Source: Gammaproteobacteria bacterium (lineage in GTDB: Bacteria > Pseudomonadota > Gammaproteobacteria > Steroidobacterales > PWYM01). From it: a stretch of DNA of 38,166 bases. Location: NCBI GenBank assembly GCA_007127715.1, contig SKYU01000211.1:1-38166 (forward strand), read 5' to 3'. The translations under genes and the position numbers were made by a program. Positions 18,303-38,166 of the stretch are shown here, in pieces (the first letter of the stretch is position 1; every line of letters begins with the position of its first letter). The notes below the pieces were generated by a model. The model had not been told where the DNA came from and did no database searches. It saw only the letters and a program-made list of their open reading frames with translations.

Positions 18303-21248
18303 ATGGATGTACAGGCAAAACACGGATTCGAAGCGGCACTGTTCGACATGGATGGTGTGGTCACCCGCACGGCATCGCTGCATGCACAGGCCTGGCAGGC
18401 GGCCTTTGACGAGACGCTTGCCGACCTGGCGGATGCCGGCGGCTCATCCGTGCCGCCGTTCGACCCTGTCCGGGACTACCTCGCGTGGGTCGATGGACGT
18501 GCCCGGGAAGCTGGTGTGCGGGCCTATCTGCAGGCCCGCGAGGTCCACCTGCCCGACGGTGGACGGGCGGCCGAGGATGCGGCCCTGGTGGCGCGCATCG
18601 GCGAGCGCAAGAACGCCCTGTTCGTCGGGCTGCTGGCCGAGCATGGCGTCGAACTCTATGACTCGACCCTGACCTTGCTGCGAAACCTGCGCGCCCAAGG
18701 TGTACGGACCGGGGTGGTGACCGCCAGCCGACACGGCCGTGCGTTGCTGCAGAAGGCCGGTATCGCGATGTTGTTCGATGCCCGCGTGGACGGCATGGAT
18801 GCCGCACGCGGGCGGCTCGCCGGCAAGCCCTTGCCCGAGACCTATCTGCGCTGTGCCGAACTGCTGGAGGTGCGCCCGTCGCGCAGTGTGGTGTTCGAAG
18901 ATGCCGTCGCGGGGGTGCAGGCGGCGCGTGATGGGGGCTTCGGCCTGGTGGTGGGCGTGGATCGTGGGGGCAATTCGCAGGCCCTGGCAGCAGCCGGTGC
19001 GGACCTGGTGGTCACGGATCTCGAGGAGGTCGACGTTGCCCGGCTCTCGCGCGCACTGTCCCAGCGGCGCGCCGGTGTGCTGGCCTGGCGCATCGAGCAG
19101 GAGGGTTTCGATCCGGCGCGCGAACACGCGATGGAAGCTCTGTTTACCGTGGCCAACGGCTATCTGGGCTTGCGCGGTGCCCTGGATCTGCCCATGCCGG
19201 GCTCCGACGACGATCTGTTCGTGGCCGGTATCTTTGACCGGAAACACCCCGAGCGTCCGTATTCCGAGCTCGAGTTCATGGATGTCGGTCGCGAGGACCC
19301 CTACGCGGAAAGGGTGTCTCTGCCAGGTCCGCTGCGGCTGTCGCTGGCAGTCGATGACGTGGCGCTGGATGTGCCGGGCGAGCGGTGCCGAGTGCATCGG
19401 AGACTGCTCCGACTGCAGGATGGGCTGCTCGAGGCCCAGCTGCTGTTCGATGTCCCCGATGGCGAATACCTCCGCCTGACGACCCGCCGTGCGGCCTCGC
19501 TCGATGATGCCCACCTGCTGCTGCAGGAGATCTGCCTTGAAACGGCGGGTCCTGTGGCCACGCTCATGTTGGACGCCAGGTCCGCCGACCCGGACCTGGC
19601 GGCCCGGCATCCCCATCTCGTTCCACTGGAACTCAGCGCGCCGGCGCCGGGCCTGGAACTGCAGCGGTTCCGTACCCGGGTCTCGGGTTTCGAAATCGTC
19701 ATGGTCTCTCAACTGTTCGACGGCAAGGGACGTCGGCCTCTTCGACTGCAGCGAAGCGCTCACCCTGGAGAACCACTGCGTTTCTGGCGCAGCGTCAGCG
19801 TATTCACCAGCCGCGATGTACCGGTGCCCCGCGAGGCTGCACTCGCGCATGCGGAGGCCGTAGCGCGTTCCGGCCCGGTCGAAGGATTGCGCGCACATTC
19901 AGCCCGGTGGCATGCGTACTGGCAGGCGTCCGACATCGCGATCGAGGGCAGCCCGGCCACCGAGCAGGCCCTGCGATTCAACAGCTATCACCTGCGGGCC
20001 GCTGCGGATCATGATCCGCGTGTCTCGGTCGGTGCGAGAGCGCTCAGCGGCCGCGCCTACGAGGGGCATGTGTTCTGGGACGTCGAAGTGTTCATGTTGC
20101 CGTTCTACATACATACCGCACCGGAGATTGCCAGAGCGTTGCTGGGATATCGCTACCACACGCTCGCGGGCGCGCGTCGCCGGGCGCGGGAACTGGGGGC
20201 GTCCGGTGCATGCTATGCCTGGGAGTCGACGGTGACCGGTGATGACGTGACGCCCCGCAAGCTGCTGCTGCGAACGACCGGCCGGGAGATCCCGATCTTC
20301 ACCGGAGCCCAGCAGCTGCATGTCACAGCCGGCGTGGCACTCGGCGTATGGCGCTACTGGGAGGCGACCCACGATGCGCGGTTCCTGAGGCAGCAGGGCT
20401 GCGAGATCCTGTTTGAAACAGCACGGTTCTGGATGACCCGGAGCGTGCTGGAGGGTGCGACGCGTCATCTGCGCGGCGTGGTCGGACCGGATGAGTATCA
20501 TCATGGTGTCGATGACAACGCCTATACCAACTGGATGGCGCGGTTCAACCTGGAGTGGGCGGCATGGGCAGCCGACTGGCTGGCCGATGACAGCCCCGGC
20601 GAGTTCGCCTCCCTCGCCGAACGCCTGGCACTTGATCACGGTGAGCCTGCCGCCTGGGCGCAGGCCGCCCGGGTACTGTTCTGTCCGCAGCCCCGTGGTG
20701 ACGGGGTGATCGAGCAGTTTGCCGGTTTCCACGCCCTGCCACGCCATGACATGCGGGAAGAGGAACGTTACCGGGCGCCGATCGACCGGCTGTTCGACTG
20801 GGAGCGGATCAACAGGCTCCAGCTGCTCAAGCAGGCCGATGTGCTCATGCTGCTGCACCTGTGTCCCGATCTCTTCCCGGAAGACGTCGTCACGGCGAAT
20901 TACCACTTCTACGAGCCGAGGACAGACCATGGCAGCAGTCTGTCGCCTCCCGTCCATGCGGCGATTGCTGCGAGAATCGGTGAGCGGGAGCCGGCGTGGC
21001 GATACTGGCGGCAGGCCCTGTGGTTCGACCTCGGGAACCTGATGGGCAACGGCGCGTTGGGTATCCATCCCGCCTGCATGGGGGCTGTCTGGCAGGCGCT
21101 GGTGTTCGGCTTTCTCGGTGTTCGTTTCGAGCACAACGGACCACAGATCCATGAATGCGCCCGGCACCGGTTACCACCGGAATGGCGTGCCGTGCGGGTC
21201 CCGCTTCGATGGCGTGGTCGCCGCTACCTGCTTGAGGCTCGGGCATGA
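18303..21248 (+). CDS. bifunctional HAD (beta-phosphoglucomutase-like) + GH65 glycoside phosphorylase fusion, 981 aa
   Basis: N-terminal DMDGVVTRTASLHAQAW and SRSVVFEDAVAGVQAARDGGF; C-terminal GH65 VVGPDEYHHGVDDNAYTNWMARFNL, YFWD-type GHVFWDVEVFMLPF. Confidence 0.93.
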   Translation: MDVQAKHGFEAALFDMDGVVTRTASLHAQAWQAAFDETLADLADAGGSSVPPFDPVRDYLAWVDGRAREAGVRAYLQAREVHLPDGGRAAEDAALVARIGERKNALFVGLLAEHGVELYDSTLTLLRNLRAQGVRTGVVTASRHGRALLQKAGIAMLFDARVDGMDAARGRLAGKPLPETYLRCAELLEVRPSRSVVFEDAVAGVQAARDGGFGLVVGVDRGGNSQALAAAGADLVVTDLEEVDVARLSRALSQRRAGVLAWRIEQEGFDPAREHAMEALFTVANGYLGLRGALDLPMPGSDDDLFVAGIFDRKHPERPYSELEFMDVGREDPYAERVSLPGPLRLSLAVDDVALDVPGERCRVHRRLLRLQDGLLEAQLLFDVPDGEYLRLTTRRAASLDDAHLLLQEICLETAGPVATLMLDARSADPDLAARHPHLVPLELSAPAPGLELQRFRTRVSGFEIVMVSQLFDGKGRRPLRLQRSAHPGEPLRFWRSVSVFTSRDVPVPREAALAHAEAVARSGPVEGLRAHSARWHAYWQASDIAIEGSPATEQALRFNSYHLRAAADHDPRVSVGARALSGRAYEGHVFWDVEVFMLPFYIHTAPEIARALLGYRYHTLAGARRRARELGASGACYAWESTVTGDDVTPRKLLLRTTGREIPIFTGAQQLHVTAGVALGVWRYWEATHDARFLRQQGCEILFETARFWMTRSVLEGATRHLRGVVGPDEYHHGVDDNAYTNWMARFNLEWAAWAADWLADDSPGEFASLAERLALDHGEPAAWAQAARVLFCPQPRGDGVIEQFAGFHALPRHDMREEERYRAPIDRLFDWERINRLQLLKQADVLMLLHLCPDLFPEDVVTANYHFYEPRTDHGSSLSPPVHAAIAARIGEREPAWRYWRQALWFDLGNLMGNGALGIHPACMGAVWQALVFGFLGVRFEHNGPQIHECARHRLPPEWRAVRVPLRWRGRRYLLEARA

Positions 21249-25650: not shown

Positions 25651-27246
25651 TCAGATCGTACCGTTGACGATGGGCTGGAAGGCCGTCAGCTGGTCCCGGA
25701 GAGTCGGGCTGCCGAGCCCGTGGCCTGGGAACAGGCTCGGGAACTGGCCCTGCTCGCCGTGCAATGCGAGGTAGTTCAGTACCGTGAGTTCCACCAGCTG
25801 GTTGACGTTGTTTGCCGCCGGGCTCGAAGCGGTCTCCACTGAGCCATCCGGTCGGAACCAGCCGATCTGCTGGTGTCGCGCCTGCTGCTCCGGCGTGGCT
25901 CCCAGTAACTGCGGCCGCCCTCCAGGGTTATAGACCAGGAAAAAGGAGGCGGCCGTCGACTGGTTGTCGCTGGTCCATTCGCCCTTGCCTCGGCCCTCCT
26001 CGGAGTTATCGATGACACCGTTGCTCGACAGCGAACCATCACTGAAGACATACAGCATCAGCGGCACATTCAGACGGGCCGCATACTCCAGACAGGCGCC
26101 CATGCAGCGACCTGCGCGCAGATCGCGCACCTCACCGAGCGCCCGCCGCCCACCGTGGTAGTCGTAGCCCCCCATGGTGATGCAGCCGGCACCGGCGAAC
26201 CCGTTCATGACCAGCTTCATCACCGAGGCCGTTTTCCGGAACTCGCCGTCGCTGTTGAACTCCTGTTCACTGAAAATGCCGTTGGGACCCACGATGTCCG
26301 GGTCCAGTGCGGGGTTGAGCGAGGAGGGGTCGCCAAACCGGTCGGCGATATCCGCCGATCGGAGATAACCGCAACGTACCAGGTCCTTGATCACCGCGTC
26401 CCGCGTGATGAGTCCGGTATCGACCCGGTTCAGCTTGCGGTCGCTGAGCCGGTAGATGGACTCCATCACTGCGACAGCATCGTCCTGGTTCAGAAGTCCA
26501 ATCAGCTTGCCGGTATCCACCAGGCCGGTGACGTCCGTGGGACGATCGACCTTGGTCGGACGGACTTCAGGGTTGATCAGTCCAGCCGGGGCCAGCGAGT
26601 TGCCGCCGGACTCGGTCGGCCGGGAGCCGATCAGCGTCAGCAGCGAACCGTCCGCGCCCGCGCGGTGTATCCCGTAAAGCGGGTTGTGCGGGTTGTTGCC
26701 CGTGTCGTTTTCCGAGCGTGCAGGGATCAGTGCGCCGTTGACGTTGCCGAAGCGGCCAGCCTGAAGCTTGTCGACGATACCTCGCAGAAAGGCACTGTCC
26801 GAATGAAACGCGAGTCCAAGACTGTCATCGATGAAGGCCGCACCGGTCAACGGGTCGTTCAGGCGTGGCACCATGTCTCCCGGCAGGCCCTGGCGGCTGT
26901 AGCCCTGGGTGCTGATGAAATCCAGCTGCCCGCCCTGTCGTCCGCCAAGCACGTTTGATCCGACCATGTTGGCACCGCCAGCAAGGTCGAAACAGATGAA
27001 CGGGATCTTGCCTGCTCCCTGTACGGCAATACCGCAGCTCTCGCTCAGGGCGCGCAGATCTGGCGAAAGCTGCGCAAATGCCGCCCTGGGGTTGGCGAAC
27101 AGGCTGAAGAGTCCGGCGCCGGCGATGGTTGCGGCCCCGGTCATGAAGCCCTGCGCAATCAGCTGCCGGCGGGTGATGGGCCGCGGATGGTCGGGATGGC
27201 GCAGTGGCGCGTACCAGTCGTTGCCGTGCATGCGTCGCCTTGTCAT
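25651..27246 (-). CDS. Tat-exported DUF1501-like protein
   Basis: ITRRQLIAQGFMTGAATIAGAGLFSLFANPRAAFA leader; PFICFDLAGGANMVGSN; GGYDYHGGRR metal-site-like motif. Confidence 0.7.
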   Translation of the reverse strand: MTRRRMHGNDWYAPLRHPDHPRPITRRQLIAQGFMTGAATIAGAGLFSLFANPRAAFAQLSPDLRALSESCGIAVQGAGKIPFICFDLAGGANMVGSNVLGGRQGGQLDFISTQGYSRQGLPGDMVPRLNDPLTGAAFIDDSLGLAFHSDSAFLRGIVDKLQAGRFGNVNGALIPARSENDTGNNPHNPLYGIHRAGADGSLLTLIGSRPTESGGNSLAPAGLINPEVRPTKVDRPTDVTGLVDTGKLIGLLNQDDAVAVMESIYRLSDRKLNRVDTGLITRDAVIKDLVRCGYLRSADIADRFGDPSSLNPALDPDIVGPNGIFSEQEFNSDGEFRKTASVMKLVMNGFAGAGCITMGGYDYHGGRRALGEVRDLRAGRCMGACLEYAARLNVPLMLYVFSDGSLSSNGVIDNSEEGRGKGEWTSDNQSTAASFFLVYNPGGRPQLLGATPEQQARHQQIGWFRPDGSVETASSPAANNVNQLVELTVLNYLALHGEQGQFPSLFPGHGLGSPTLRDQLTAFQPIVNGTI

Positions 27247-27276: not shown

Positions 27277-29730
27277 TCAGTGGACCAGCGTGGCGGCACT
27301 GCCGAGCACAGCTGCGCATGTGGCCTTGCCGATGGTGACCGTACGGTCGGCCGGGCAACTGCCGCCGCAGGTGTCCAGACGATCGATGAGTGCGTTCAGC
27401 TCGCTGCGGATCTCCGTCTGTGTCGGCTGCTGCTCGAGTCCGAGGCCCACCATCCGTGAGACCAGTGGATCGATGAGCAGATCGCGACCAGCACCCGAGA
27501 GGGCCACCCCTGGGCTTGCCGAGAAGTCCAGTCCAGGGAAGTAGGCGCTTCGGCGTGCCGAATCCTCGAGCAGAGCATTGCAGTACTCGATCGCAAGCTG
27601 GGTGACGCCGATCTGGTGTGCAGACACGAAAGTGTCGATGGCATCGATCGAAGGCAGCTGCTGGCGGACCAGTCTGAACGTCTCCTGGACGTCAGGCGTG
27701 GTCTGCGGTACGCCAGTGACGACCGACATGGTGGCGTTGATCCGGTCAAAGGTGCGAATGCCGATCCGCGAAGAAGGCGCCCGGTCGACGACCGTAGGCG
27801 GCTGCGGTGCAGGCTGGACGATGAAATTGGTGCTCGACCCCAGCCGCTCGAAGCTCAGGAAGAACTCGTCGATATCCGGCCCGGACTCGAGGCCGATGAC
27901 CGCGGCCTGGGCCGAGAGCACCTGCCCCGTGCCCTCTTCGTAGTTCGTTCCACCCAGCTCCAGATCGAGTCTGGAAAACGCCTGGCCGACGTTCGCCACG
28001 TTCCCGTTGATTCCGATCCGGATCCCCTGCAGCGGTACACCGGCGGGTGCGCTGCCTCCGCCCAGCACGATGAACCTGGGTTCGGCGAACAGATAGGCGT
28101 AGCTGTCGAACTGGCTGACCTCCATCAGGATATAGCTGTCCGCCTGGCCAACGTGCTCGCTGACGTTGAACAGCAGGAAGAACTTCTCACCCACGCCGGC
28201 CTCGATGTTCTGAGCGATCTGCTCGGGGGTCAGGGCGCGGTTGTGGATTGCCGCCAGTCGGATCACCCCCTCCCATGGCCTGTCGCCGGAGGGTTCATTA
28301 CCCAACACGAAGGCGAAGCTGTCGTCCCAGTCGTTCAGGGTCCCGCCGCCGACGGGGTCGGTCATGACCACCAGGTTCCCGTTGACGTAGATCTGCCGAC
28401 CGCCCACAGGATCGAAGGTGACGACCACGTGCTGCAGGGTCGCCTGCAGGACCTCCTCGGCGTTCGGGGTAGATACAGCGGGCATGCCATTGGCATCCGT
28501 CGCGTCGCTGCGGTTAAGGAAATCATAGTTGTAGCGCGTCTGGCCGAGAGTGAAGTTTCGGGCCATGCTGCCAGCCGAATAGCTGATGATCGGTACATCT
28601 TCCTGGTTGACGTTACCCGGGACGACCCAGGCCTCGACGGAATACTCGCCGGTCGCACGGATCAGGTTGTGGAGTTTTCGGCTGGCGGCGACGCTGCCCT
28701 GCGCCTTGCCGCCACGCAGGTCGATACCCCAACCCCCAAACCAGTCGACCTCGCCACTCAAGGTCAGATCGAGGGCCGGCTGTACGCCGCTGGTGTCGAA
28801 TGCACGGGTTCCTCGTCCTTCCTTGAATTCCCAGAAGGCGATCTGCGCCGACTCGTAGCGGTTACCGCCGGCGGCGACGATACCCTCGGGGAGCGTCAGC
28901 GCGCCACTGAGCACCAGTGACGGATCGACCTGGGTGACCGGGATCATGTCCGCCATCGCGCTGATGGCATTCTCTATCGCCTCACCATCGGCGCGGCAGT
29001 CGCCGCTCCAGCAGTTGTGGAACTCGTCGCCTACACGCACGACGAAACGGGAGATGCCGGGGGTGTCGAGGTTGATCCTGTTACGTGCGGCAGCGTAGGC
29101 GGTCAGCACGTCGCCGTCAGCAAAAAACGGCGCGACTCCGTTCGCCGCAGCTCCGCTGTGACATTCCGCGCAGAAATCGCGGAGGATGGGAAAGACCGTC
29201 GTCTGGAAAGCCGCCGGGTCTGCAGGGAATACCCGACTGTCGCTGACGGTGCGCATGGCAGGTGGTACGAGTTCGATCTCGCGACCCTGGTTGCCGTCGC
29301 CCCCGGCCCAGTTGCCGATCCATGTGGTCATGATGTCCGCGCAGGCCTGCATGCTTTCCAGCCAGCAGTTGTGACCGTTGGCGACCATGCTCACCAGAAC
29401 CGATTCGCCCGGCGACGTCAGATTCACGAGGCCGCCTACATCTTGGTAGGCGAGGTTCACGTCGTCCGTACGGGCGAACGTGGGCAGCGTGCCCCCGGTG
29501 CCATGGCAATTCCCGCAGGTGTTGACCGTATTGACGTTTTCCCAGAGATGTGTGCGGAAGGCCTGTACTTCGGCCGTGGCTGGCGGCGGCCCGGAGTATC
29601 CTCCACCGCTTGGCGGCATCACGATCGGATTGCTCTGGGTTTCGACTTCGCTGCCACAGGCAGCAAGCAGGACCAGGGTGGCGCCGAGTGCGGCGGTGCG
29701 CAGTCGCGGTGCAAGGCTCATCGTGCTCAT
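27277..29730 (-). CDS. di-heme c-type cytochrome lipoprotein with LamG-like domain, about 817 aa
   Basis: MSTMSLAPRLRTAALGATLVLLAACGSE lipobox; CGNCH (29503-29517) and CAECH (29158-29172); LamG-like YSVEAWVVPGNVNQEDVPIISYS...HVVVTFDPVGGRQIYVNGNLV. Confidence 0.85.
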   Translation of the reverse strand: MSTMSLAPRLRTAALGATLVLLAACGSEVETQSNPIVMPPSGGGYSGPPPATAEVQAFRTHLWENVNTVNTCGNCHGTGGTLPTFARTDDVNLAYQDVGGLVNLTSPGESVLVSMVANGHNCWLESMQACADIMTTWIGNWAGGDGNQGREIELVPPAMRTVSDSRVFPADPAAFQTTVFPILRDFCAECHSGAAANGVAPFFADGDVLTAYAAARNRINLDTPGISRFVVRVGDEFHNCWSGDCRADGEAIENAISAMADMIPVTQVDPSLVLSGALTLPEGIVAAGGNRYESAQIAFWEFKEGRGTRAFDTSGVQPALDLTLSGEVDWFGGWGIDLRGGKAQGSVAASRKLHNLIRATGEYSVEAWVVPGNVNQEDVPIISYSAGSMARNFTLGQTRYNYDFLNRSDATDANGMPAVSTPNAEEVLQATLQHVVVTFDPVGGRQIYVNGNLVVMTDPVGGGTLNDWDDSFAFVLGNEPSGDRPWEGVIRLAAIHNRALTPEQIAQNIEAGVGEKFFLLFNVSEHVGQADSYILMEVSQFDSYAYLFAEPRFIVLGGGSAPAGVPLQGIRIGINGNVANVGQAFSRLDLELGGTNYEEGTGQVLSAQAAVIGLESGPDIDEFFLSFERLGSSTNFIVQPAPQPPTVVDRAPSSRIGIRTFDRINATMSVVTGVPQTTPDVQETFRLVRQQLPSIDAIDTFVSAHQIGVTQLAIEYCNALLEDSARRSAYFPGLDFSASPGVALSGAGRDLLIDPLVSRMVGLGLEQQPTQTEIRSELNALIDRLDTCGGSCPADRTVTIGKATCAAVLGSAATLVH

Positions 29731-29752: not shown

Positions 29753-30961
29753 TCAGTCGGCGCGGCAGTAGGCCGCCGCCTCCGCGAAAACCTGTCGCAT
29801 GCGGTAGTTCCCGCCACGGAAACTGGTCACCATGCTGGAGACCTGCTGGCGGTCCGCAGCGTCACTGGGCGGACGCAGGCAGACCGTCTGGAAAACTTTC
29901 TCCACCTGGCACTGCGCGAACGCCTCGCTGTTGGCCAGTTCCTCGCCCATCGACTTCGCGCCGTAACCCTGGCCAGGGCGCCCCGGGTCCCAGCCCAGCA
30001 AGGCGTTCTGCCCCTCACGCCAGTAGTTGGCCCAACTCGCGTCCGTAGTCACGAATCCCTGCGGGAACGTGTCGGCGTTGTTGAAGTACTTTGACCGAAC
30101 CTGGCCGGGTGAGTAGACGATGCGCCGCGCGCTTTCGTCCCAGTCGTAGTAGGCGTAGGCGCCTGCGAGCGGGTCCATGCCGGTGTGGCAGCTCACGCAG
30201 TTGTTCAGGAACAAGCGGCTGTCTCCACCCGGGCTGCGCGAGACATCCTGACGGATCCAGTCGGGTGACAGGGAGGTGTCCGCGACCTGCTCGAGGTCCC
30301 GGCACATATGCGCCATCAGCGTGAAGCGCAGCATCGCCCGGTTGGTCCCCGCGATGAAGAACGCTTCGGCGGCAGCCCTCGTGGTCATGACACCTGCGGT
30401 CGCCTCGGGCGGCAGATCAGTCATCGCCGACTGCGGGCGTTGTACCAGGTTTTCCATCAGGTTGATGTTGCGGTTCTCCAACGCCTCGTAGTGTGCATTG
30501 CTGGTCATCGAGAACGCTGGCACGCCCTGAAGGCCATCCCGACCCACGTAGATGATGTCGGCGGAGAGGAGCTGATTGAAGGGTACGTCGTCACGGACCA
30601 TTCCGATGACGGTGGCGATGTAGTCGTTCAGCGGAACGAAGACGTCTTCTTCACGGTTGGTCCAGGGTGCGGCCCAGTTTTTCAGGGTGACGTCGTAAAA
30701 GGCGCGATTCTCCATCGCGATGTAGGCGGCGCCGATGGCGTCGCCGTTGCGGACCAGGCCCTCCATCTGATCGAGCGTCGCGGCCGAGGGAGGCACGCCT
30801 GCGAGCCTGTCATGAATGCGACGCGCTTCGTCGCGCGGGCTCGCGAACGCCTGCACACTGAGAACAAGTGTGCACAAGAGGGCGATGGCCGATACGACCG
30901 TCGACAGTGTCTTGCCGGTCGATTCCAGCGGCTTCCGGAGATCATGCATGCCTGCTGTCAC
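29753..30961 (-). CDS. mono-heme c-type protein, DUF1592/DUF1588-like, about 402 aa
   Basis: Signal peptide; NNCVSCHTGMDPLAGAYAYYDWDE (heme motif 30185-30199) resembles CxxCHxxxDPLGxxLExxD of DUF1588; GTG start after GAGGTG SD. Confidence 0.75.
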   Translation of the reverse strand: MTAGMHDLRKPLESTGKTLSTVVSAIALLCTLVLSVQAFASPRDEARRIHDRLAGVPPSAATLDQMEGLVRNGDAIGAAYIAMENRAFYDVTLKNWAAPWTNREEDVFVPLNDYIATVIGMVRDDVPFNQLLSADIIYVGRDGLQGVPAFSMTSNAHYEALENRNINLMENLVQRPQSAMTDLPPEATAGVMTTRAAAEAFFIAGTNRAMLRFTLMAHMCRDLEQVADTSLSPDWIRQDVSRSPGGDSRLFLNNCVSCHTGMDPLAGAYAYYDWDESARRIVYSPGQVRSKYFNNADTFPQGFVTTDASWANYWREGQNALLGWDPGRPGQGYGAKSMGEELANSEAFAQCQVEKVFQTVCLRPPSDAADRQQVSSMVTSFRGGNYRMRQVFAEAAAYCRAD

Positions 30962-31194
30962 GTCGGGTCACCTCTTCGATGAATTGCGGCCTGCCGCAAG
31001 CTTGGGTCATTAGGCAAACGGAAGCGACCAGCCTTCTGTGACCCGGTTAACGTTTATTCGAGACGAGTCAGGCTTAAGTAAAACCACTGGTGCGGTAAGC
31101 GGTTCCTGCGGTTCAGACTTCAGTCGTCGGCAGATCGGTCGATAACCCTCAAGACTGCGAGGCACTGGCCATGAAGGGCATTTCGGGTGGGTCG

Positions 31195-33858
31195 ATGAAC
31201 CAGGCGTTATGGCAACGATTCGGTCTGCGATGCATGCCTGCGGTCATCGCGCTGGCGCTTGTGGGCTGCGGCGGCGATGATGGTATTGGCCCGGCGAGTG
31301 GGCAGGGCCCGGATCCGGTCGTCGTCGATGTGCCGATCGCCTATGTCGTACGTCCCGTGCCCGAGGGTGCGCAGGGCGTGTTGCCGACCACCGACGTACG
31401 CCGGTTGCTCGATCGTTTCGAGGTCGGTGCGGACCTGGTGATTCGTGAGCGGGCATCGCCTTCAGCGCCGGAGATCAACGTGACCTCCGCGTTGACCGAG
31501 GGGCAATACGATATCCGTGATGTCAGTGTGTCGTGGGATGGTGAACGTCTGCTGTTTTCGATGCGCGGACCCTTTATCGAAGGCGCGGACCCGGAAGACC
31601 AGCCGACCTGGAACATCTGGGAGTACCATCGCCTCGACGAGCGGCTTCGCAGGATCATCACCTCCGAGCTGACGGCGGAGCTCGGCCATGATCTGGCGCC
31701 ACAGTTCCTGCCGGATGGTCGCATCATCTTCACGTCCACCAGACAGCGTGGCAGCAAGGCCATGCTCCTCGATGAGGGGAAGCCACAGTTCGACGCGCTC
31801 GACGAGAATTTCAACGAGCCGGCGTTCGTGCTCCACGTCATGAACGACGATGGCAGCGACATCCGCCAGGTTTCGTTCAATCAGAGTCACGATCTTTCCC
31901 CAAGTGTGCTGTCGAACGGCCAGGTCGTGTTCAGTCGCTGGGACCGTTACGGCTCGCGTAACGAAATCAGCCTGTATCGCATGAACCCGGACGGGACGGA
32001 CCTCGAGCTGCTCTACGGTAAGAACAGTCGGCGCACGGGTCGCAACGGGACGGACGTACATTTCCTCCGTCCCAGGGAAATGCCGGACGGCCGGATCATG
32101 GTGCTGGCCCAGCCATTTCAGACGCAGTATCTGGGCGGTGACCTGGTACTGATCGATACGGCGAACTATGTCGAGAACACGCAGCCTACGGCGGCAAACG
32201 CAGGGGCGCTGAGCGGGCCTGCGCAGACCGCCGCGACGGCCAGCGATGTGGTTCCCGGCACGGGCATTTCACCCGGCGGGCAGTACAGTTCGGTCTGGCC
32301 CCTCGATGACGGGACGGACCGGATGTTCGTGAGCTGGAGCCAGTGTCGGCTGATCGAGAACGGCCGGATCGTGCCCTGCACGGACGAGCGGCTGGAGAAT
32401 CCGTCGGCCGTACCGGCGCCACCGTTGTACGGCATCTGGATTTACGATCGGCGTAACGATACGCAGCTTCCCGTGCTCCAGCCGCGTGAGGGCGTGGTGT
32501 ACTCGGAGGTGATCGCGATGCAGCCGCGCCGCCTGCCGAACATCATCTTCGATCAGCTGGCCAGCGGCCAGGCGGACAGCCGTCTTGCCGAGCAGGGCCT
32601 GGGGCTCCTGAACATCCGCAGCGTCTACGATGTGCTCGGTCAGGACATCTCCGGTGTTGGCATCGCAAACCTGGCTGATCCTGCGCAGGCGAGCTTTGCA
32701 GATCGTCCGGTGGCCTGGCTGCGTTTGCTGAAGGCGGTCGCGATTCCGGATGACGAGGTCCGCGATTTCAATCGCGGTGCGGCGTTCGGGGCCGCCGGTG
32801 CCCGCAGGGGCATGCGCGAGATCATCGGCTATGCGCCGATCGAGCCTGATGGCTCGGTCGTGGTGGCGGTCCCGGCGGACGTGCCCTTGTCCCTGTCCAT
32901 CCTCAACCGGGCAGGACATCGCACAAGGCCGTTGCATCAGAACTGGTTGCAGGTGCGGCCGGGACAGACGCTGAGCTGCAACGGCTGTCATCAGCCGGGC
33001 AGCGGTCAGTCCCACGGGCGGCGTGACGCGTTTGAAAGCGTCTGGGCGGGGGCAGCGTCCGCCAGTGTGCCCTTCCCGAACACCCGCGGTGAGCTGTTCG
33101 CGGATTTCGGTGAGACCATGGCGGAGGTCAAGGCCAGGCTCAGCTGCGGCATCGAGGACTGCGCGGCCATCCTGCCCAGTGTCGACGTGGTGTTCGAGGA
33201 TATCTGGACCGATCCTGAGGCTGCGGGCCGCGAACCCGACCCCTCGTTCGCCTGGCAATACGCCGATCTCGAGACGCCCGCGCCGGTGGCCGAGACCTGT
33301 ATGCAGCGGTGGACTGCGGCGTGCCGCACGATCATCAACTACGAAACCCATCTCCAGCCCTTGTGGGAGGTCGATCGAAGCATCATCGATGACGATGGCT
33401 TCACCGTCCTGGCCGATCGAACCTGCACGACCTGCCATTCGCGTACCGACGCGATGGGTGGGGCCCAGGTTCCGGCGGCTCAGCTCGAACTGACCGGTGA
33501 TCCCTCTCCGGCACAGGCCCTGCAGTTTCGCTCCTACCGGGAGTTGTTGTTCCCGGATCTGGAACTGGAACTGGTCGAAGGCGCACTGCAGATCCGTCTG
33601 GTCGAGCAGATCGATCCCGCTACCGGCCTGCCGGTGGTCGACGAGGAGACCGGCGAGCCTGTCCTGGTGCCGGTCCAGGTCCCGGCGTCGATGAGCGCGG
33701 GCGGCGCCAATGCCTCCAACCGGTTCTTCAGGGTGTTTGCGCCTGGGGGTGAGCATGACGGGTGGCTGACCCCGGCGGAGCTTCGTCTCGTGGCCGAATG
33801 GCTTGATCTCGGTGGCCAGTATTTCAACAACCCCTTCGACGCACCGGCAGAGGACTGA
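31195..33858 (+). CDS. HzsA-related (hydrazine synthase alpha-like) PD40-type propeller di-heme lipoprotein
   Basis: Lipobox ALVGCGGDD; PIAYVVRPVP; propeller-like repeats (FLPDGRIIFTSTR, VLSNGQVVFSRWD, RMNPDGTDLELLY); IGYAPIEPDGSVVVAVPADVPLSLSILNRAGHRTRPLHQNWLQVRPGQTLSCNGCHQPG; second heme CTTCH (33424-33438). ATG at 31171 is an alternative start. Confidence 0.85.
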   Translation: MNQALWQRFGLRCMPAVIALALVGCGGDDGIGPASGQGPDPVVVDVPIAYVVRPVPEGAQGVLPTTDVRRLLDRFEVGADLVIRERASPSAPEINVTSALTEGQYDIRDVSVSWDGERLLFSMRGPFIEGADPEDQPTWNIWEYHRLDERLRRIITSELTAELGHDLAPQFLPDGRIIFTSTRQRGSKAMLLDEGKPQFDALDENFNEPAFVLHVMNDDGSDIRQVSFNQSHDLSPSVLSNGQVVFSRWDRYGSRNEISLYRMNPDGTDLELLYGKNSRRTGRNGTDVHFLRPREMPDGRIMVLAQPFQTQYLGGDLVLIDTANYVENTQPTAANAGALSGPAQTAATASDVVPGTGISPGGQYSSVWPLDDGTDRMFVSWSQCRLIENGRIVPCTDERLENPSAVPAPPLYGIWIYDRRNDTQLPVLQPREGVVYSEVIAMQPRRLPNIIFDQLASGQADSRLAEQGLGLLNIRSVYDVLGQDISGVGIANLADPAQASFADRPVAWLRLLKAVAIPDDEVRDFNRGAAFGAAGARRGMREIIGYAPIEPDGSVVVAVPADVPLSLSILNRAGHRTRPLHQNWLQVRPGQTLSCNGCHQPGSGQSHGRRDAFESVWAGAASASVPFPNTRGELFADFGETMAEVKARLSCGIEDCAAILPSVDVVFEDIWTDPEAAGREPDPSFAWQYADLETPAPVAETCMQRWTAACRTIINYETHLQPLWEVDRSIIDDDGFTVLADRTCTTCHSRTDAMGGAQVPAAQLELTGDPSPAQALQFRSYRELLFPDLELELVEGALQIRLVEQIDPATGLPVVDEETGEPVLVPVQVPASMSAGGANASNRFFRVFAPGGEHDGWLTPAELRLVAEWLDLGGQYFNNPFDAPAED

Positions 33859-33865
33859 GCCGACC

Positions 33866-34627
33866 GTGACCGTGACACGTCTCAAGCCTCTGCACCTGCT
33901 GCTGATTACCGCAGCCGTTTTCTTGCACTTCGTCACACCAGTGCAGGCCCGCGATGCGCACTATGTTGTCGAGATCGTCGAGGCGTTTCTCGAACTGCAC
34001 AGCGGTCCCGGGCGAGGGTATCCACGTTTTCACATCGCCGAGCGTGGCGAGCGGGTAGAGGTGCTCAGCCGGCGTACCGACTGGTTCAGGGTGCGTACGA
34101 AGCAGGGTGTCGAAGGCTGGGCCAGTCGTGCACAACTCAGCCAGACCGTCCGACCATCGGGCGAGCCTGTGACTATCGCGCCGCCGAGCCGGCTCGACTA
34201 TCTGGATCGTCGGATCGAAGGCGGAGTGTTGCTGGGCGATTTCGGCGGGGCGGATGCGCTTTCGGCCTATGTGGCCTGGCACGCGACGCGGAATCTGTCG
34301 CTGGAGCTTGGAGGCGCTGATCTCAACGGCAGGTTCTCCAGCGGATGGTGGGCAGGGCTTAACCTGGTCCACCAGCCCTGGCCGGAGTGGCGGGTGTCGC
34401 CGTTCCTGGCACTTGGGACCGGGGTCATCCGGATCGAGCCGCGGGCGACTCTGGTCGACGTGGAGGACCGGACGGACCAGGTCGGTCATGCCGGACTGGG
34501 GCTGAGGATGCACGTGACGCGCAACTTCATGCTGCGGGCGGAATATCGGCGGTACGTGGTGTTTACCAGCCGCGATGAGAACGAGGACGTCAACGAATGG
34601 AAAGCGGGTTTCGGCTTCTTCTTCTGA
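33866..34627 (+). CDS. bacterial SH3 domain + outer-membrane beta-barrel protein
   Basis: GTG start; signal peptide; AFLELHSGPGRGYPRFHIAERGERVEVLSRRTDWFRVRTKQGVEGWASRAQL; barrel-like C-terminus ending FGFFF. Confidence 0.8.
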   Translation: MTVTRLKPLHLLLITAAVFLHFVTPVQARDAHYVVEIVEAFLELHSGPGRGYPRFHIAERGERVEVLSRRTDWFRVRTKQGVEGWASRAQLSQTVRPSGEPVTIAPPSRLDYLDRRIEGGVLLGDFGGADALSAYVAWHATRNLSLELGGADLNGRFSSGWWAGLNLVHQPWPEWRVSPFLALGTGVIRIEPRATLVDVEDRTDQVGHAGLGLRMHVTRNFMLRAEYRRYVVFTSRDENEDVNEWKAGFGFFF

Positions 34628-35265
34628 ACCTGTCTGCCGTCCTCGGCCTTGCCGTGCTGGCCAGCGGTTGCAGTCGGGTGGTGGATACGCTGGACGAGCC
34701 TGTTACGGCTGAACCGGTGATCGACCCACGCGTGGAGCGGCGCGATGTGCGCCGGCCGAAAATCGACACGGAGAACTTCGAGCTCGGCGCCTACACCGGC
34801 TTCATAAGTGTCGAAGACTTCGGCAGCAGCACGGTCGCCGGCGCACGACTTGCCTATCACATCACCGAGGGGCTGTTTGCCGAGGCGACCTATGGGCAGA
34901 CGACCGCGGGGCGCACCAGTTTCGAGACGCTGAGCGGGGCGGTCGAACTGCTTGCGCCCGGTGAGCGCAAATTCCGCTACTACGACCTCTCGCTGGGATA
35001 CAACCTGTTCCCGGGAGAAACCTTCATCGGTAGGAATCGTGCATTCACCTCTTCTTTGTACCTGCTGCTGGGCGCCGGCAGCACCGACTTCGCTGGCGAC
35101 AGTCGGTTCACGATCAGCTTCGGTGCAGGTTATCGCGTGTTGCTGAACGACTGGCTGTCCGCCCATTTGATGGTCCGGGATCACGTCTTTCGCACGGATC
35201 TCCTCGGCGAAGACAAGACCGTACACAACATCGAATTCGTGATCGGGCTCGGCTGGTTCTTCTGA
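34597..35265 (+). CDS. outer-membrane beta-barrel domain protein with lipoprotein-like leader
   Basis: MESGFRLLLLNLSAVLGLAVLASGCSR; alternating amphipathic strands; ends IGLGWFF; overlaps upstream CDS by 31 bp. Confidence 0.75.
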   Translation: MESGFRLLLLNLSAVLGLAVLASGCSRVVDTLDEPVTAEPVIDPRVERRDVRRPKIDTENFELGAYTGFISVEDFGSSTVAGARLAYHITEGLFAEATYGQTTAGRTSFETLSGAVELLAPGERKFRYYDLSLGYNLFPGETFIGRNRAFTSSLYLLLGAGSTDFAGDSRFTISFGAGYRVLLNDWLSAHLMVRDHVFRTDLLGEDKTVHNIEFVIGLGWFF

Positions 35266-35306: not shown

Positions 35307-35837
35307 ATGATGACCGACACCCCACGTATCGATCGCCGCAAGCTCTGTTCGCTGCTCGCCGCCGCACCGCTGGCTGCCGCGCCCATCTCCGGTGCGTTGG
35401 CCCGTTCCGCGCAAAGCGGTCCCGCGCCCGACTTCACGCTGCCCGTCCGCGGTGGGGGAAGCAAGACGCTCAGCGAGCTGCGTGGCGACGTGGTCATGCT
35501 GAATTTCTGGGCCACGTGGTGTCCGCCATGCCGCCAGGAGATGCCACTGCTGGACCAGATCTACCAGCGTTTCCAGCGGCTGGGGTTCACGCTGCTGGGC
35601 GTGAACGTGGAGCAGGAGAACCGTCTCATCGACCGGTTCCTTGCCGAAGTGCCGGTGAGTTTCCCGATCCTGCTGGATACCCAGGAAGAGGTGGGCGCGT
35701 TGTATGGGGTAGCCGCCATGCCGACCACGATCCTGGTGGACCGCAGCGGTCAGCTGAGGGATCACTTTTTCGGCTATCGGCCAGGTGATGAACAGAAATA
35801 CCAGGATGCGGTACGCGCCCTTGTGAGGGAGCGGTGA
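35307..35837 (+). CDS. TlpA/ResA-like thiol-disulfide oxidoreductase, exported
   Basis: VVMLNFWATWCPPCRQEMPLLDQIYQRF; RR-containing leader DRRKLCSLLAAAPLAAAPISGALA. Confidence 0.93.
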   Translation: MMTDTPRIDRRKLCSLLAAAPLAAAPISGALARSAQSGPAPDFTLPVRGGGSKTLSELRGDVVMLNFWATWCPPCRQEMPLLDQIYQRFQRLGFTLLGVNVEQENRLIDRFLAEVPVSFPILLDTQEEVGALYGVAAMPTTILVDRSGQLRDHFFGYRPGDEQKYQDAVRALVRER

Positions 35838-35839
35838 TC

Positions 35840-36070
35840 ATGCCCCTTCGCCTGCAGCGGACTCTGGTGGTTGCGGCGGTCTGCATGATCGCGGGCTGCG
35901 CCGGTATCGAGCCGTGGGTCCAGCCCTACGAACGCGACCGTCTCGCGGACCCCATCATGAGTTTCGAGCGCGACCCTGTCTCTGCAGCGTATCTGCAGAA
36001 ACTGTACGACATCCGTGAGGGTGCCCGTGGTGCCACCGGCGGCGCGGGTGGTGGTTGCGGCTGCAACTGA
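35840..36070 (+). CDS. DUF4266-type small lipoprotein
   Basis: MPLRLQRTLVVAAVCMIAGCAGIEPWVQPYERDRLADPIMSFERDP...; lipobox IAGC; C-terminal GGAGGGCGCN. Confidence 0.88.
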   Translation: MPLRLQRTLVVAAVCMIAGCAGIEPWVQPYERDRLADPIMSFERDPVSAAYLQKLYDIREGARGATGGAGGGCGCN

Positions 36071-36092: not shown

Positions 36093-37241
36093 ATGCGTTT
36101 TCCGATCATCGTGGTTACCGGTCTCATGGTCGTTGCCTCTGCAGGCCTCACTGCCGTCTCAGAGGCGGCAGTGCTGCCGGAGGAGCGGATCGACGTGATG
36201 TACCACTACTATGATGGTGGCGGCATCACGGTCGAGGGTCCGTCGGTGCTGGTTCGCAAGCAGTTCGGCGAGAGTTTCTCGGTGCAGGGCAAGTACCATG
36301 TCGACACGATCTCGGGTGCTTCGATCGACGTCATCACGACGGCGAGCCCCTATCGCGAAGAACGCACCGAAATCGCCGGCACGGTCGATTACCTGCGGGG
36401 CGACACCCTGTTGAGCTTCGGTGTGGTCCGCAGCGACGAAAACGACTACAAGGGCCGGTCGTTCAATATCGGCGTCAGCCAGGAAGTGTTCGCGGCGATG
36501 ACCACGCTCAGCATGGGCTATGTGCGGGGGTCGGACGAGATCGGCAGGACCGGTGAGCCGGACTTTCTGGAAGAACTGGACCGACACTCCTGGCGACTGG
36601 GTGTGACGCAGGTCGTGACCCGGAACATGCTGGCTGAGCTCTCGTTCGAGACCATTACCGACAAGGGGTTTCTCAACAACCCGTATCGGCAGGTCAGGTA
36701 TCTGGATCCTGAACCTGGCCGGGGGTATAGCTTCCAGCCTGAGGTCTATCCGCGGCGCCGGACCAGCAACGCGGTGGCCCTGCGTACCCGCTATCACCTG
36801 CCCTACCGGGCAGCTGTGCACGCGGAATACCGGTACTTCAGCGACGACTGGGGCATCGATGCGCATGCGGCCAGGATCGGCTACACGCACGCCACGCTGC
36901 CGCGGCTCATTCTCGACATCCAGTACCGCTATTACACCCAGGGGGCCGCGGATTTCTGGAGTGACCTGTATCCGTTCCGCAGTGCGCAGAATTTTCTGGC
37001 CCGGGACAAGGAACTCAGCCGCTATGACAGCCACGCGGTGCGTCTCGGGGTGAGTTACGACCTGCTGAGATCGCGCATGGCGTTCATCGAGCGCGGCACA
37101 GTGAATTTCGTCTATGACTGGATCACCGCGGACTACCGCGACTTCCGCGACCTTCGAGTCAGCGCCGAATCTCCCGGCGAAGAACCGACCTACAGCCTGT
37201 CCGCGAACGTGTTCCAACTGTACTTTTCATTCTGGTTCTGA
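36093..37241 (+). CDS. DUF3570 outer-membrane protein
   Basis: IDVMYHYYDGGGITVEGPSVLVRKQFGESFSVQGKYHVDTISGASIDVITTASPYREERTE; beta-rich, ends YFSFWF. Confidence 0.9.
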   Translation: MRFPIIVVTGLMVVASAGLTAVSEAAVLPEERIDVMYHYYDGGGITVEGPSVLVRKQFGESFSVQGKYHVDTISGASIDVITTASPYREERTEIAGTVDYLRGDTLLSFGVVRSDENDYKGRSFNIGVSQEVFAAMTTLSMGYVRGSDEIGRTGEPDFLEELDRHSWRLGVTQVVTRNMLAELSFETITDKGFLNNPYRQVRYLDPEPGRGYSFQPEVYPRRRTSNAVALRTRYHLPYRAAVHAEYRYFSDDWGIDAHAARIGYTHATLPRLILDIQYRYYTQGAADFWSDLYPFRSAQNFLARDKELSRYDSHAVRLGVSYDLLRSRMAFIERGTVNFVYDWITADYRDFRDLRVSAESPGEEPTYSLSANVFQLYFSFWF

Positions 37242-37255
37242 CCCGATCGCTTCAA

Positions 37256-37897
37256 TCAATCGCCCCACAGTTCGTTCAGCCGGCGGTCGCGGCCGCAGTT
37301 GAAGCGGTAGAAGCGGTATCGCACCGGGTTCTTGCGGTAATAGCCCTGGTGATATTCTTCGGCGGGATAGAAGGCGGTGCGATCTCGGATGGGGGTGACG
37401 ATGGGACGGTCGAATCGGCCCGAATCCTCCAGTTCTGCGAGAGAGGCTTCGGCCAGGGTGCGCTGTGCCTCGTCAGCCACGAAAATCCCCGTGAGGTACG
37501 CCTCGCCCCGGTCGCAGAACTGGCCGCCGTCATCCAGTGGGTCGACATTTCGCCAGAACACCTCGAGCAGGCGTGCGTAATCGACGACCGCAGGGTTGTA
37601 GACCACCTTGACCGCCTCTACATGGCCCGTGCCGCCGCGTACCACCTGCTGGTAACTGGGGTTGGAGACATGGCCACCGATGAAGCCCGAGGTAGTGGAG
37701 ATGACGCCATCCAGCGCATCGAACGGAGGCTCCATACACCAGAAACAGCCACCGGCGAAGACTGCGCTGGCGTGGGTCTCATCGGGCTGCGGGGTCGCGC
37801 TGCCCGAAGCTGACGGCAGGCTGGCACCCAGCATGAGCAGGCCGAGCGCGCCCGCGGCGATGACCAACCACTGTCTGACTGAGGGTCCCGTGATCAT
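37256..37897 (-). CDS. msrA: peptide-methionine (S)-S-oxide reductase, exported
   Basis: Hydrophobic leader QWLVIAAGALGLLMLGASLPSASG; AVFAGGCFWCMEPPFDALDGVISTTSGFIGGHVSNPSYQQV. Confidence 0.95.
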   Translation of the reverse strand: MITGPSVRQWLVIAAGALGLLMLGASLPSASGSATPQPDETHASAVFAGGCFWCMEPPFDALDGVISTTSGFIGGHVSNPSYQQVVRGGTGHVEAVKVVYNPAVVDYARLLEVFWRNVDPLDDGGQFCDRGEAYLTGIFVADEAQRTLAEASLAELEDSGRFDRPIVTPIRDRTAFYPAEEYHQGYYRKNPVRYRFYRFNCGRDRRLNELWGD

Positions 37898-38166
37898 CCG
37901 CGCAGCTCCGGCAGGGGCTGGTCGCCGGGTACGAACGTCAGTGCAACGCCATTATTGCACCAGCGCTTGCCAGTCGGTCGCGGTCCATCGTTGAACACGT
38001 GACCCTGATGGCCACCGCAGCGCGCGCAGTGGTATTCGGTTCTGGGGATGATCAGGCGGAAATCGCGTTTCGTGCCGATGTGAGCCTCGATGGCCGCCCA
38101 GAAACTCGGCCAGCCCGTGCCGCTGTCGTACTTGGTGGAGGACTCGAAAAGGGGCAGGTGACAGGC
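37894..38166 (-). CDS. msrB: peptide-methionine (R)-S-oxide reductase, partial (5' end beyond window)
   Basis: Translated - strand: ACHLPLFESSTKYDSGTGWPSFWAAIEAHIGTKRDFRLIIPRTEYHCARCGGHQGHVFNDGPRPTGKRWCNNGVALTFVPGDQPLPELRG*; ATGA overlap with msrA. Confidence 0.95.
   Translation of the reverse strand, partial: ACHLPLFESSTKYDSGTGWPSFWAAIEAHIGTKRDFRLIIPRTEYHCARCGGHQGHVFNDGPRPTGKRWCNNGVALTFVPGDQPLPELRG

Follow-up and report, generated by a model that had tools for sequence, protein, structure and literature searches.

A hydrazine synthase alpha-like diheme lipoprotein in a conserved envelope redox locus of Gammaproteobacteria, and its possible link to an Agl/Glt-type motor

Introduction

What does a relative of the hydrazine synthase alpha subunit (HzsA) do in a gammaproteobacterium, outside an anammox setting? 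In Kuenenia HzsA, Tyr591 ligates the catalytic heme alphaI, His587 of that CxxCH motif binds zinc, and heme alphaII is coordinated by two histidines (PMC12607021, PMC12758564). HzsA homologues outside anammox bacteria have been published and grouped as clades I-IV (PMC12758564). The original prediction for the window (the whole stretch of 38,166 nucleotides analysed here) placed a diheme lipoprotein gene at 31195-33858 and suggested that its product may be an enzyme related to HzsA but acting on another substrate.

Results and discussion

An intact member of the HzsA family

The gene, termed HZA here, is a single intact open reading frame as predicted. Its start lies at 31171, 31195 being the second ATG in the same frame.

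31171..33858, plus strand: HZA, HZS_alpha-family diheme propeller lipoprotein of 895 amino acids (PF18582 E 4.3e-14; Foldseek match 5c2v_A; invariant lipobox Cys33)
31267..31269, plus strand: lipobox cysteine C33, invariant in 73 homologues

Every motif quoted in the original prediction was found in the protein, namely the lipobox LVGC (C33), DGRIIF at residue 182, NGQVVF at 249, PDGTDLE at 273, the middle segment (VPADVPLS...CNGCHQPG) beginning at 567 and CTTCH at 752. The layout is therefore a lipobox followed by a PD40/TolB-like propeller, an HZS_alpha middle domain carrying CNGCH and a C-terminal CTTCH. The supposed likeness of the middle segment to the HZS alpha middle domain is borne out by PF18582 at 53.3 bits against a gathering cut-off of 26.6, and PD40 also scores above its Pfam cut-off. 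Among PDB sequences, 5c2v_A (hydrazine synthase alpha) was the only convincing match, with E 1.5e-8 for the single sequence and 1.1e-17 for a profile of 73 HZA sequences. An AlphaFold model built from the 73-homologue alignment (pLDDT 92.5, pTM 0.89) has 5c2v_A/D as its best PDB match in Foldseek over the whole length (E about 1e-28, 1.2e-28 for 5c2v_A), with about 960 alignment columns, TM 0.51-0.59 and 16-17% identity over the structural alignment. TolB propellers are the next-best fold, and the TolB model TIGR02800 matches the sequence at E 5.9e-5. HZA is a member of the HzsA family by both fold and sequence, with two c-heme motifs, and since a significant HZS_alpha match and the propeller-plus-two-hemes layout of HzsA are both present, the proposed relationship stands. 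A spurious frame or chance motif is excluded by the family match and by full-length homologues at 83-42% identity; shuffled controls of a chance origin gave a frame of 800 or more in 0/200 cases. The lipobox and the barrel-encoding neighbours described below would place HZA at the outer membrane, although the residue at +2 of the lipobox, Gly in 9/15 sequences, is Asp in 4/15, which speaks against this location in some relatives.

Heme ligands and the question of hydrazine synthesis

Alignment to 5c2v_A allowed the heme environments of HZA to be compared with those of Kuenenia HzsA.

32935..32937, plus strand: H589, invariant histidine ahead of the first heme motif (73/73; Ala in Kuenenia HzsA)
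32977..32991, plus strand: first heme c motif CNGCH, heme alphaI position, with no Tyr at the Tyr591 position
33013..33015, plus strand: H615 of an SHGR motif, second candidate axial ligand (71/71 of the two-heme type, absent from the three-heme type)
33424..33438, plus strand: second heme c motif CTTCH, heme alphaII position (motif and 5c2v_A alignment)
33754..33756, plus strand: H862, counterpart of HzsA His772, the distal alphaII ligand (aligned to 5c2v_A, 73/73)

The two heme sites fared differently in this comparison. The bis-His pair of heme alphaII (His689/His772 in HzsA) is retained as H756/H862, and H607, H756, H862 and H589 are each invariant in the alignment (73/73). The HzsA heme-alphaI ligand Tyr591, by contrast, is missing, as no Tyr occurs within +7 of the first CxxCH in any of the 73 HZA homologues. 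For the zinc ligand Cys303, the HZA family has no conserved cysteine column; the profile alignment to 5c2v_A stops one residue earlier, the adjoining residue being N285. Cys303 is not conserved across all anammox bacteria either (PMC12758564).

Shared family, fold and heme-alphaII ligands would be in keeping with HZA as a genuine hydrazine synthase alpha subunit, one that serves an anammox-like pathway not yet recognised. Against this, HZA reaches only 49.4 bits with the hydrazine synthase alpha equivalog NF052339 (cut-off 800), Tyr591 is missing in all 73 relatives, and the CCP_MauG profile, which covers the family of the gamma-type subunit (HzsC-like), had no match among the HZA neighbours or in the whole 90% complete genome, in a search whose control was positive. 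The earlier observation that no other hydrazine synthase subunit is visible holds, and for the gamma-type subunit it extends to the genome. A search for Multi-haem_cyto (the HAO family) was equally empty, but its control was also blank. On the equivalog cut-off, the heme ligands and the absence of a gamma-type partner, HZA was rejected as a true hydrazine synthase. It probably does not make hydrazine, and the anammox-like reading is extremely improbable.

Comparison with the published homologues shows a second distinction. The HZS_alpha proteins of clades I-IV (PMC12758564) resemble HZA in lacking the Tyr591 ligand, but they are paired with beta-gamma homologues and have no His772 where an alphaII site exists, while HZA keeps the His772 counterpart, has no gamma-type partner that could be found and sits in a different, gammaproteobacterial locus. 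The clade I proteins studied from outside anammox are reported to have lost His772 or never had it (PMC12758564), and in keeping its counterpart the HZA family differs from them.

Alternatively, HZA could still be an enzyme that uses an open heme-alphaI site for redox chemistry on a small molecule (hydroxylamine, peroxide or NO) or on a surface polymer. The heme-alphaI domain of HzsA is kept, and H222, H240 and M650 in the propeller and middle domain are additional invariant residues. Catalysis of this kind is nevertheless unlikely, as neither Tyr591 nor Cys303 is conserved, the NO-reducing gamma subunit family is missing from the genome, and the conserved H589 and H615 could occupy the sixth site and turn heme alphaI into a low-spin electron-transfer heme. 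Electron transfer or a structural function is no less likely than catalysis.

A conserved divergent locus around HZA

HZA heads a series of genes in one direction, in the order HZA, SH3-barrel, TIGR04565 barrel, ResA-like thioredoxin, DUF4266 and DUF3570, and faces a divergent arm of three genes, for a cytochrome of PSCyt/PSD2-like type, a diheme lipoprotein with a LamG domain and the Tat-exported protein Tat531. Five c-heme motifs are spread over three proteins of the locus.

25651..27246, minus strand: Tat531, Tat-exported protein with no Pfam match (Tat motif in 42/44)
27277..29730, minus strand: LamG-domain diheme lipoprotein (PF13385 E 3.8e-21)
29753..30949, minus strand: PSCyt/PSD2-type cytochrome c with one CxxCH (weak family matches; 55/56 loci)
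33866..34627, plus strand: SH3OMP, bacterial SH3 domain and outer-membrane beta-barrel (PF08239 E 2e-10, PF13505; 63/63)
34597..35265, plus strand: OMPmyx, TIGR04565 outer-membrane beta-barrel with lipobox (160 bits, cut-off 60; 63/63)
35307..35837, plus strand: ResA/TlpA-like thioredoxin with CPPC (PF00578 E 4.5e-28; 49/63)
35834..36070, plus strand: DUF4266 lipoprotein ending GGGCGCN (PF14086 E 2.4e-21)
36093..37241, plus strand: DUF3570 beta-barrel-like protein with an SGAS motif, ApbE substrate family (PF12094 E 5e-44)

In a survey of 80 named gammaproteobacterial loci, the left arm (PSCyt-like cytochrome, LamG lipoprotein and Tat531) was complete in 55 of the 56 loci with enough flank, and in the right arm SH3OMP, OMPmyx, DUF4266 and DUF3570 were present in 63/63 loci and ResA in 49/63. 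The HZA carriers surveyed include Woeseia, Thiodiazotropha, Steroidobacter, Peristeroidobacter, Aliiglaciecola, Paraglaciecola, Sedimenticola and tubeworm symbionts, and the nearest relatives of the window's locus are those of the MAGs T3Sed10_171R1 and DLM2.Bin61. HZA therefore sits in a conserved divergent locus in diverse Gammaproteobacteria, and the predicted non-anammox setting is that of a gammaproteobacterial envelope redox locus. As a fixed member of a large envelope gene set in many ordinary Gammaproteobacteria, HZA is probably not a hydrazine-making enzyme; its carriers include genera known as heterotrophs or sulfur-oxidising symbionts, lifestyles that also count against an anammox-like pathway. 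The HzsA relatedness and domain layout seen in the original prediction were supported. That HZA is an enzyme acting on another substrate is not shown, and simpler readings are available, because Tyr591 and Cys303 are absent, a gamma-type partner was not found and the gene is fixed in a multi-gene envelope redox locus.

Several features of the neighbouring proteins are equally constant. SH3OMP and OMPmyx overlap by 31 nt (window 34597-34627), an arrangement kept in 37/40 loci that perhaps serves translational coupling. DUF4266 ends in GGCGCN in 70/70 sequences. The putative acceptor motif of DUF3570 ([S/T]GA[S/T]) is SGAS in the window and SSAS in most relatives, with TTAS as a possible second copy; flavinylation has been shown for the DUF3570 family, which is paired there with thioredoxin and DUF4266 (PMC8238504). 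In the LamG lipoprotein, the two CxxCH motifs and the lipobox Cys are invariant in 26 homologues. Homologues of the PSCyt-like cytochrome match PSD2 in 24/26 cases and PSCyt3 in 13/26, with weak or marginal Pfam scores. Tat531 is perhaps a DUF1501-like protein of the alkaline-phosphatase superfamily, to which nearly all of its weak Foldseek matches belong; firm DUF1501 membership is unsupported, as the DUF1501 profile matched 0 of 44 family members and hhalign gave a probability of 23% (E 9e-4).

In the window's genus, genes for MsrA and an MsrB-like protein lie directly downstream (window 37256-38166), but MsrA is near in only 4/47 related loci. Elsewhere, window 18303-21248 encodes a HAD-type hydrolase fused to a glycoside hydrolase family 65 protein.

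HZA also occurs in a three-heme type (L033:9337-12348, L034:9709-12723) with an additional C-terminal CxxCH domain, which forms a separate clade with full support in the tree and whose loci have no left arm. Downstream of the three-heme gene comes a conserved lipoprotein gene (lipo173), whose 173-aa product belongs to no known family. In one complete genome (L158, G091:C1:1994000-2013900), the PSD2-LamGcyt-Tat531 arm is retained, the right arm is lost and HZA has decayed to two short fragments without heme motifs. Locus L161 (G092:C66) has both arms, together with the lipo173 gene known from three-heme loci, with HZA missing between the arms. A third class of HZS_alpha frames (1267-1459 aa; G138:C40:28900, G253:C96:86448, G257:C14:13177 and G121:C19:28551) gives weaker matches and sometimes shares a genome with HZA.

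A second module with an Agl/Glt-like motor

In relatives, many HZA loci are adjoined by genes for ApbE, a protein with no Pfam match (p179) and TPR proteins, in a module of the order p179-TPR-TPR-TPR lipoprotein-MotA/ExbB-ExbD-ExbD-GltG-like. The flanks in genomes G012, G018 and G032 contain the TPR lipoprotein, MotA/ExbB and two ExbD-like genes, with a GltG-like TonB-domain protein further along in G012 and G032, and in G012 a co-directional series of genes leads from DUF3570 straight into the motor genes. In the window's genome the module lies on another contig (C39), so its linkage to HZA there is by co-occurrence only. ApbE, adjacent to HZA loci in many relatives, is likewise on this other contig.

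C39 63046-64269, minus strand: ApbE
C39 62258-62875, minus strand: ResA-like
C39 61682-62251, minus strand: p179
C39 59812-61674, minus strand: TPR
C39 57020-59812, minus strand: large TPR
C39 56398-57036, minus strand: TPR lipoprotein
C39 about 55207-55980, minus strand: MotA/ExbB
C39, minus strand: ExbD-like, two copies (assigned through likeness to scanned relatives)
C39 53211-54170, minus strand: GltG-like

A core complex of AglRQS/Glt type, of unknown function and with one extra gene, has been described in non-gliding Gammaproteobacteria (Luciano 2011, PMC3169522). The HZA-linked module fits this complex. C39 and the relatives contain MotA/ExbB, two ExbD and a GltG-type C-terminal domain, the GltG-like protein of C39 reaching 66.8 bits with the AgmX/PglI C-terminal domain model NF033768 (cut-off 40). 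Further Glt homology comes from NCBIfam models only and stays below cut-off (GltE E 3.8e-13, GltC 0.003). TPR proteins and one extra conserved gene complete the likeness to AglRQS/Glt and to the Agl-Nfs system (PMC3858216). Redox neighbours including HZA find no mention in PMC3169522 under cytochrome, thioredoxin or hydrazine. The strongly conserved exported family p179 (G000:C39:61682-62251; L023:16556-17095), without a Pfam or NCBIfam match, could represent the extra gene reported for the gammaproteobacterial complex.

HZA co-occurs both with the Tat531 arm and with p179. Among 59 genomes of the order, the distributions of two-heme HZA and Tat531 are identical (24 with both, 35 with neither). 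In a sample of the class (n=274), HZS_alpha occurs in 39 genomes and Tat531 in 35, with 30 sharing both (p 5e-27), and p179, counting closely similar proteins, is found in 33/33 order genomes with any HZA versus 2/26 without (p 1.5e-14), p values that ignore shared ancestry and are indicative only. The HZA/Tat531 exceptions examined mostly carry three-heme HZA; the others are the decaying HZA of L158 (G091) and the cluster without HZA at L161 (G092).

A possible motor-coupled redox assembly

From these parts and their linkage we infer, with a probability of roughly 0.4, that HZA is the electron-carrying, TolB-like, outer-membrane-side part of a pmf-driven Agl/Glt-type envelope redox machine that makes no hydrazine. 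In this previously undescribed system of about 20 genes, HzsA-family and PSCyt/LamG cytochromes and a flavinylated barrel would be coupled to an AglRQS/Glt-type motor. The lipobox of HZA, its barrel neighbours and the flavinylation of the DUF3570 family (PMC8238504) suggest an outer-membrane redox assembly with c-hemes, a flavin barrel and a thiol branch (CxC/thioredoxin). The MotA/ExbB-ExbD-ExbD motor and its GltG-like arm would transmit force across the periplasm, by way of the TPR proteins, to the barrels in the outer membrane. On the outer side, HZA, the LamG-cytochrome, the PSCyt-like cytochrome, a putatively flavinylated DUF3570 barrel and DUF4266 may exchange electrons, in either direction, with a substrate at the cell surface; DUF4266, a lipoprotein with a CxC tail, may be re-reduced by the ResA-like thioredoxin. 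Speculatively, the propeller of HZA could dock on the arm of the motor, much as TolB docks in Tol-Pal. TolB, the second-best propeller fold, partners a TolQR-type motor but has no heme domains. Perhaps the surface substrate is a glycan, a possibility raised weakly by the presence of LamG and by the PSCyt-like partners (PMC5615132). Myxococcus has a sister machine that moves a carbohydrate polymer of the cell surface (PMC3858216).

It is also conceivable, though less likely, that the HZA locus (HZA, the PSCyt-like and LamG cytochromes, Tat531, DUF3570, DUF4266 and ResA) forms an outer-membrane redox pathway complete in itself, serving for instance extracellular electron transfer or the redox processing of iron or glycans, and that the Agl/Glt-like module is separate and often co-inherited. 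The separate contigs in the window's genome would agree with this, as would the Tat531 triple about 50-65 kb away from HZA in G259 and G270 and the DUF3570/DUF4266/thioredoxin clusters without HZA in other bacteria (PMC8238504), and the two order genomes with p179 and no HZA count against a single machine. However, p179 accompanies HZA in every HZA genome of the order, and the co-directional run in G012 and the module near HZA in other relatives tie the two gene sets together.

The proposed motor-coupled redox machine would combine elements of several known systems. With the clusters of PMC8238504 the locus shares DUF3570, the CxC tail of DUF4266, a thioredoxin-like protein and, through a gene on another contig of the genome, ApbE, and it adds the HzsA-like cytochrome, the PSCyt/LamG cytochromes and two other barrels. 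The PSCyt/PSD cytochromes of Planctomycetota and Verrucomicrobiota with DUF1501/DUF1552 partners (PMC5615132) correspond in their PSD2/PSCyt3 traces, the LamG module and the adjacent Tat-exported protein, although the Pfam scores in the HZA locus are marginal and Tat531 is only a candidate DUF1501 protein. From Kuenenia HzsA (5c2v_A), with which it shares the propeller, the HZS_alpha middle domain with a c-heme and the C-terminal c-heme with its His pair, HZA differs in having no Tyr591 and no Cys303, an extra invariant H589, a lipoprotein anchor and no gamma-type partner that was found. The protein family and the individual modules are already known, whereas their combination appears undescribed, as no report joining HZA, the flavinylation cluster and an Agl/Glt-like module was found in the open-access literature.

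Most HZS_alpha proteins sampled in Gammaproteobacteria fall in the HZA family, and HZS_alpha matches alone are a poor basis for calling anammox. With its intact alphaII His pair and no catalytic alphaI signature, HZA provides a family context for HzsA that is useful for tracing the origin of hydrazine synthase. The locus further ties together three orphan systems, the Agl/Glt-like core complex, the DUF3570/DUF4266 flavinylation cluster and the PSCyt/LamG cytochromes, in genera that can be cultured, Steroidobacter and Aliiglaciecola among them, which makes their function testable. If the motor-coupled reading is true, a core complex of unknown function would gain a redox role and the hydrazine synthase alpha subunit a family context outside nitrogen metabolism.
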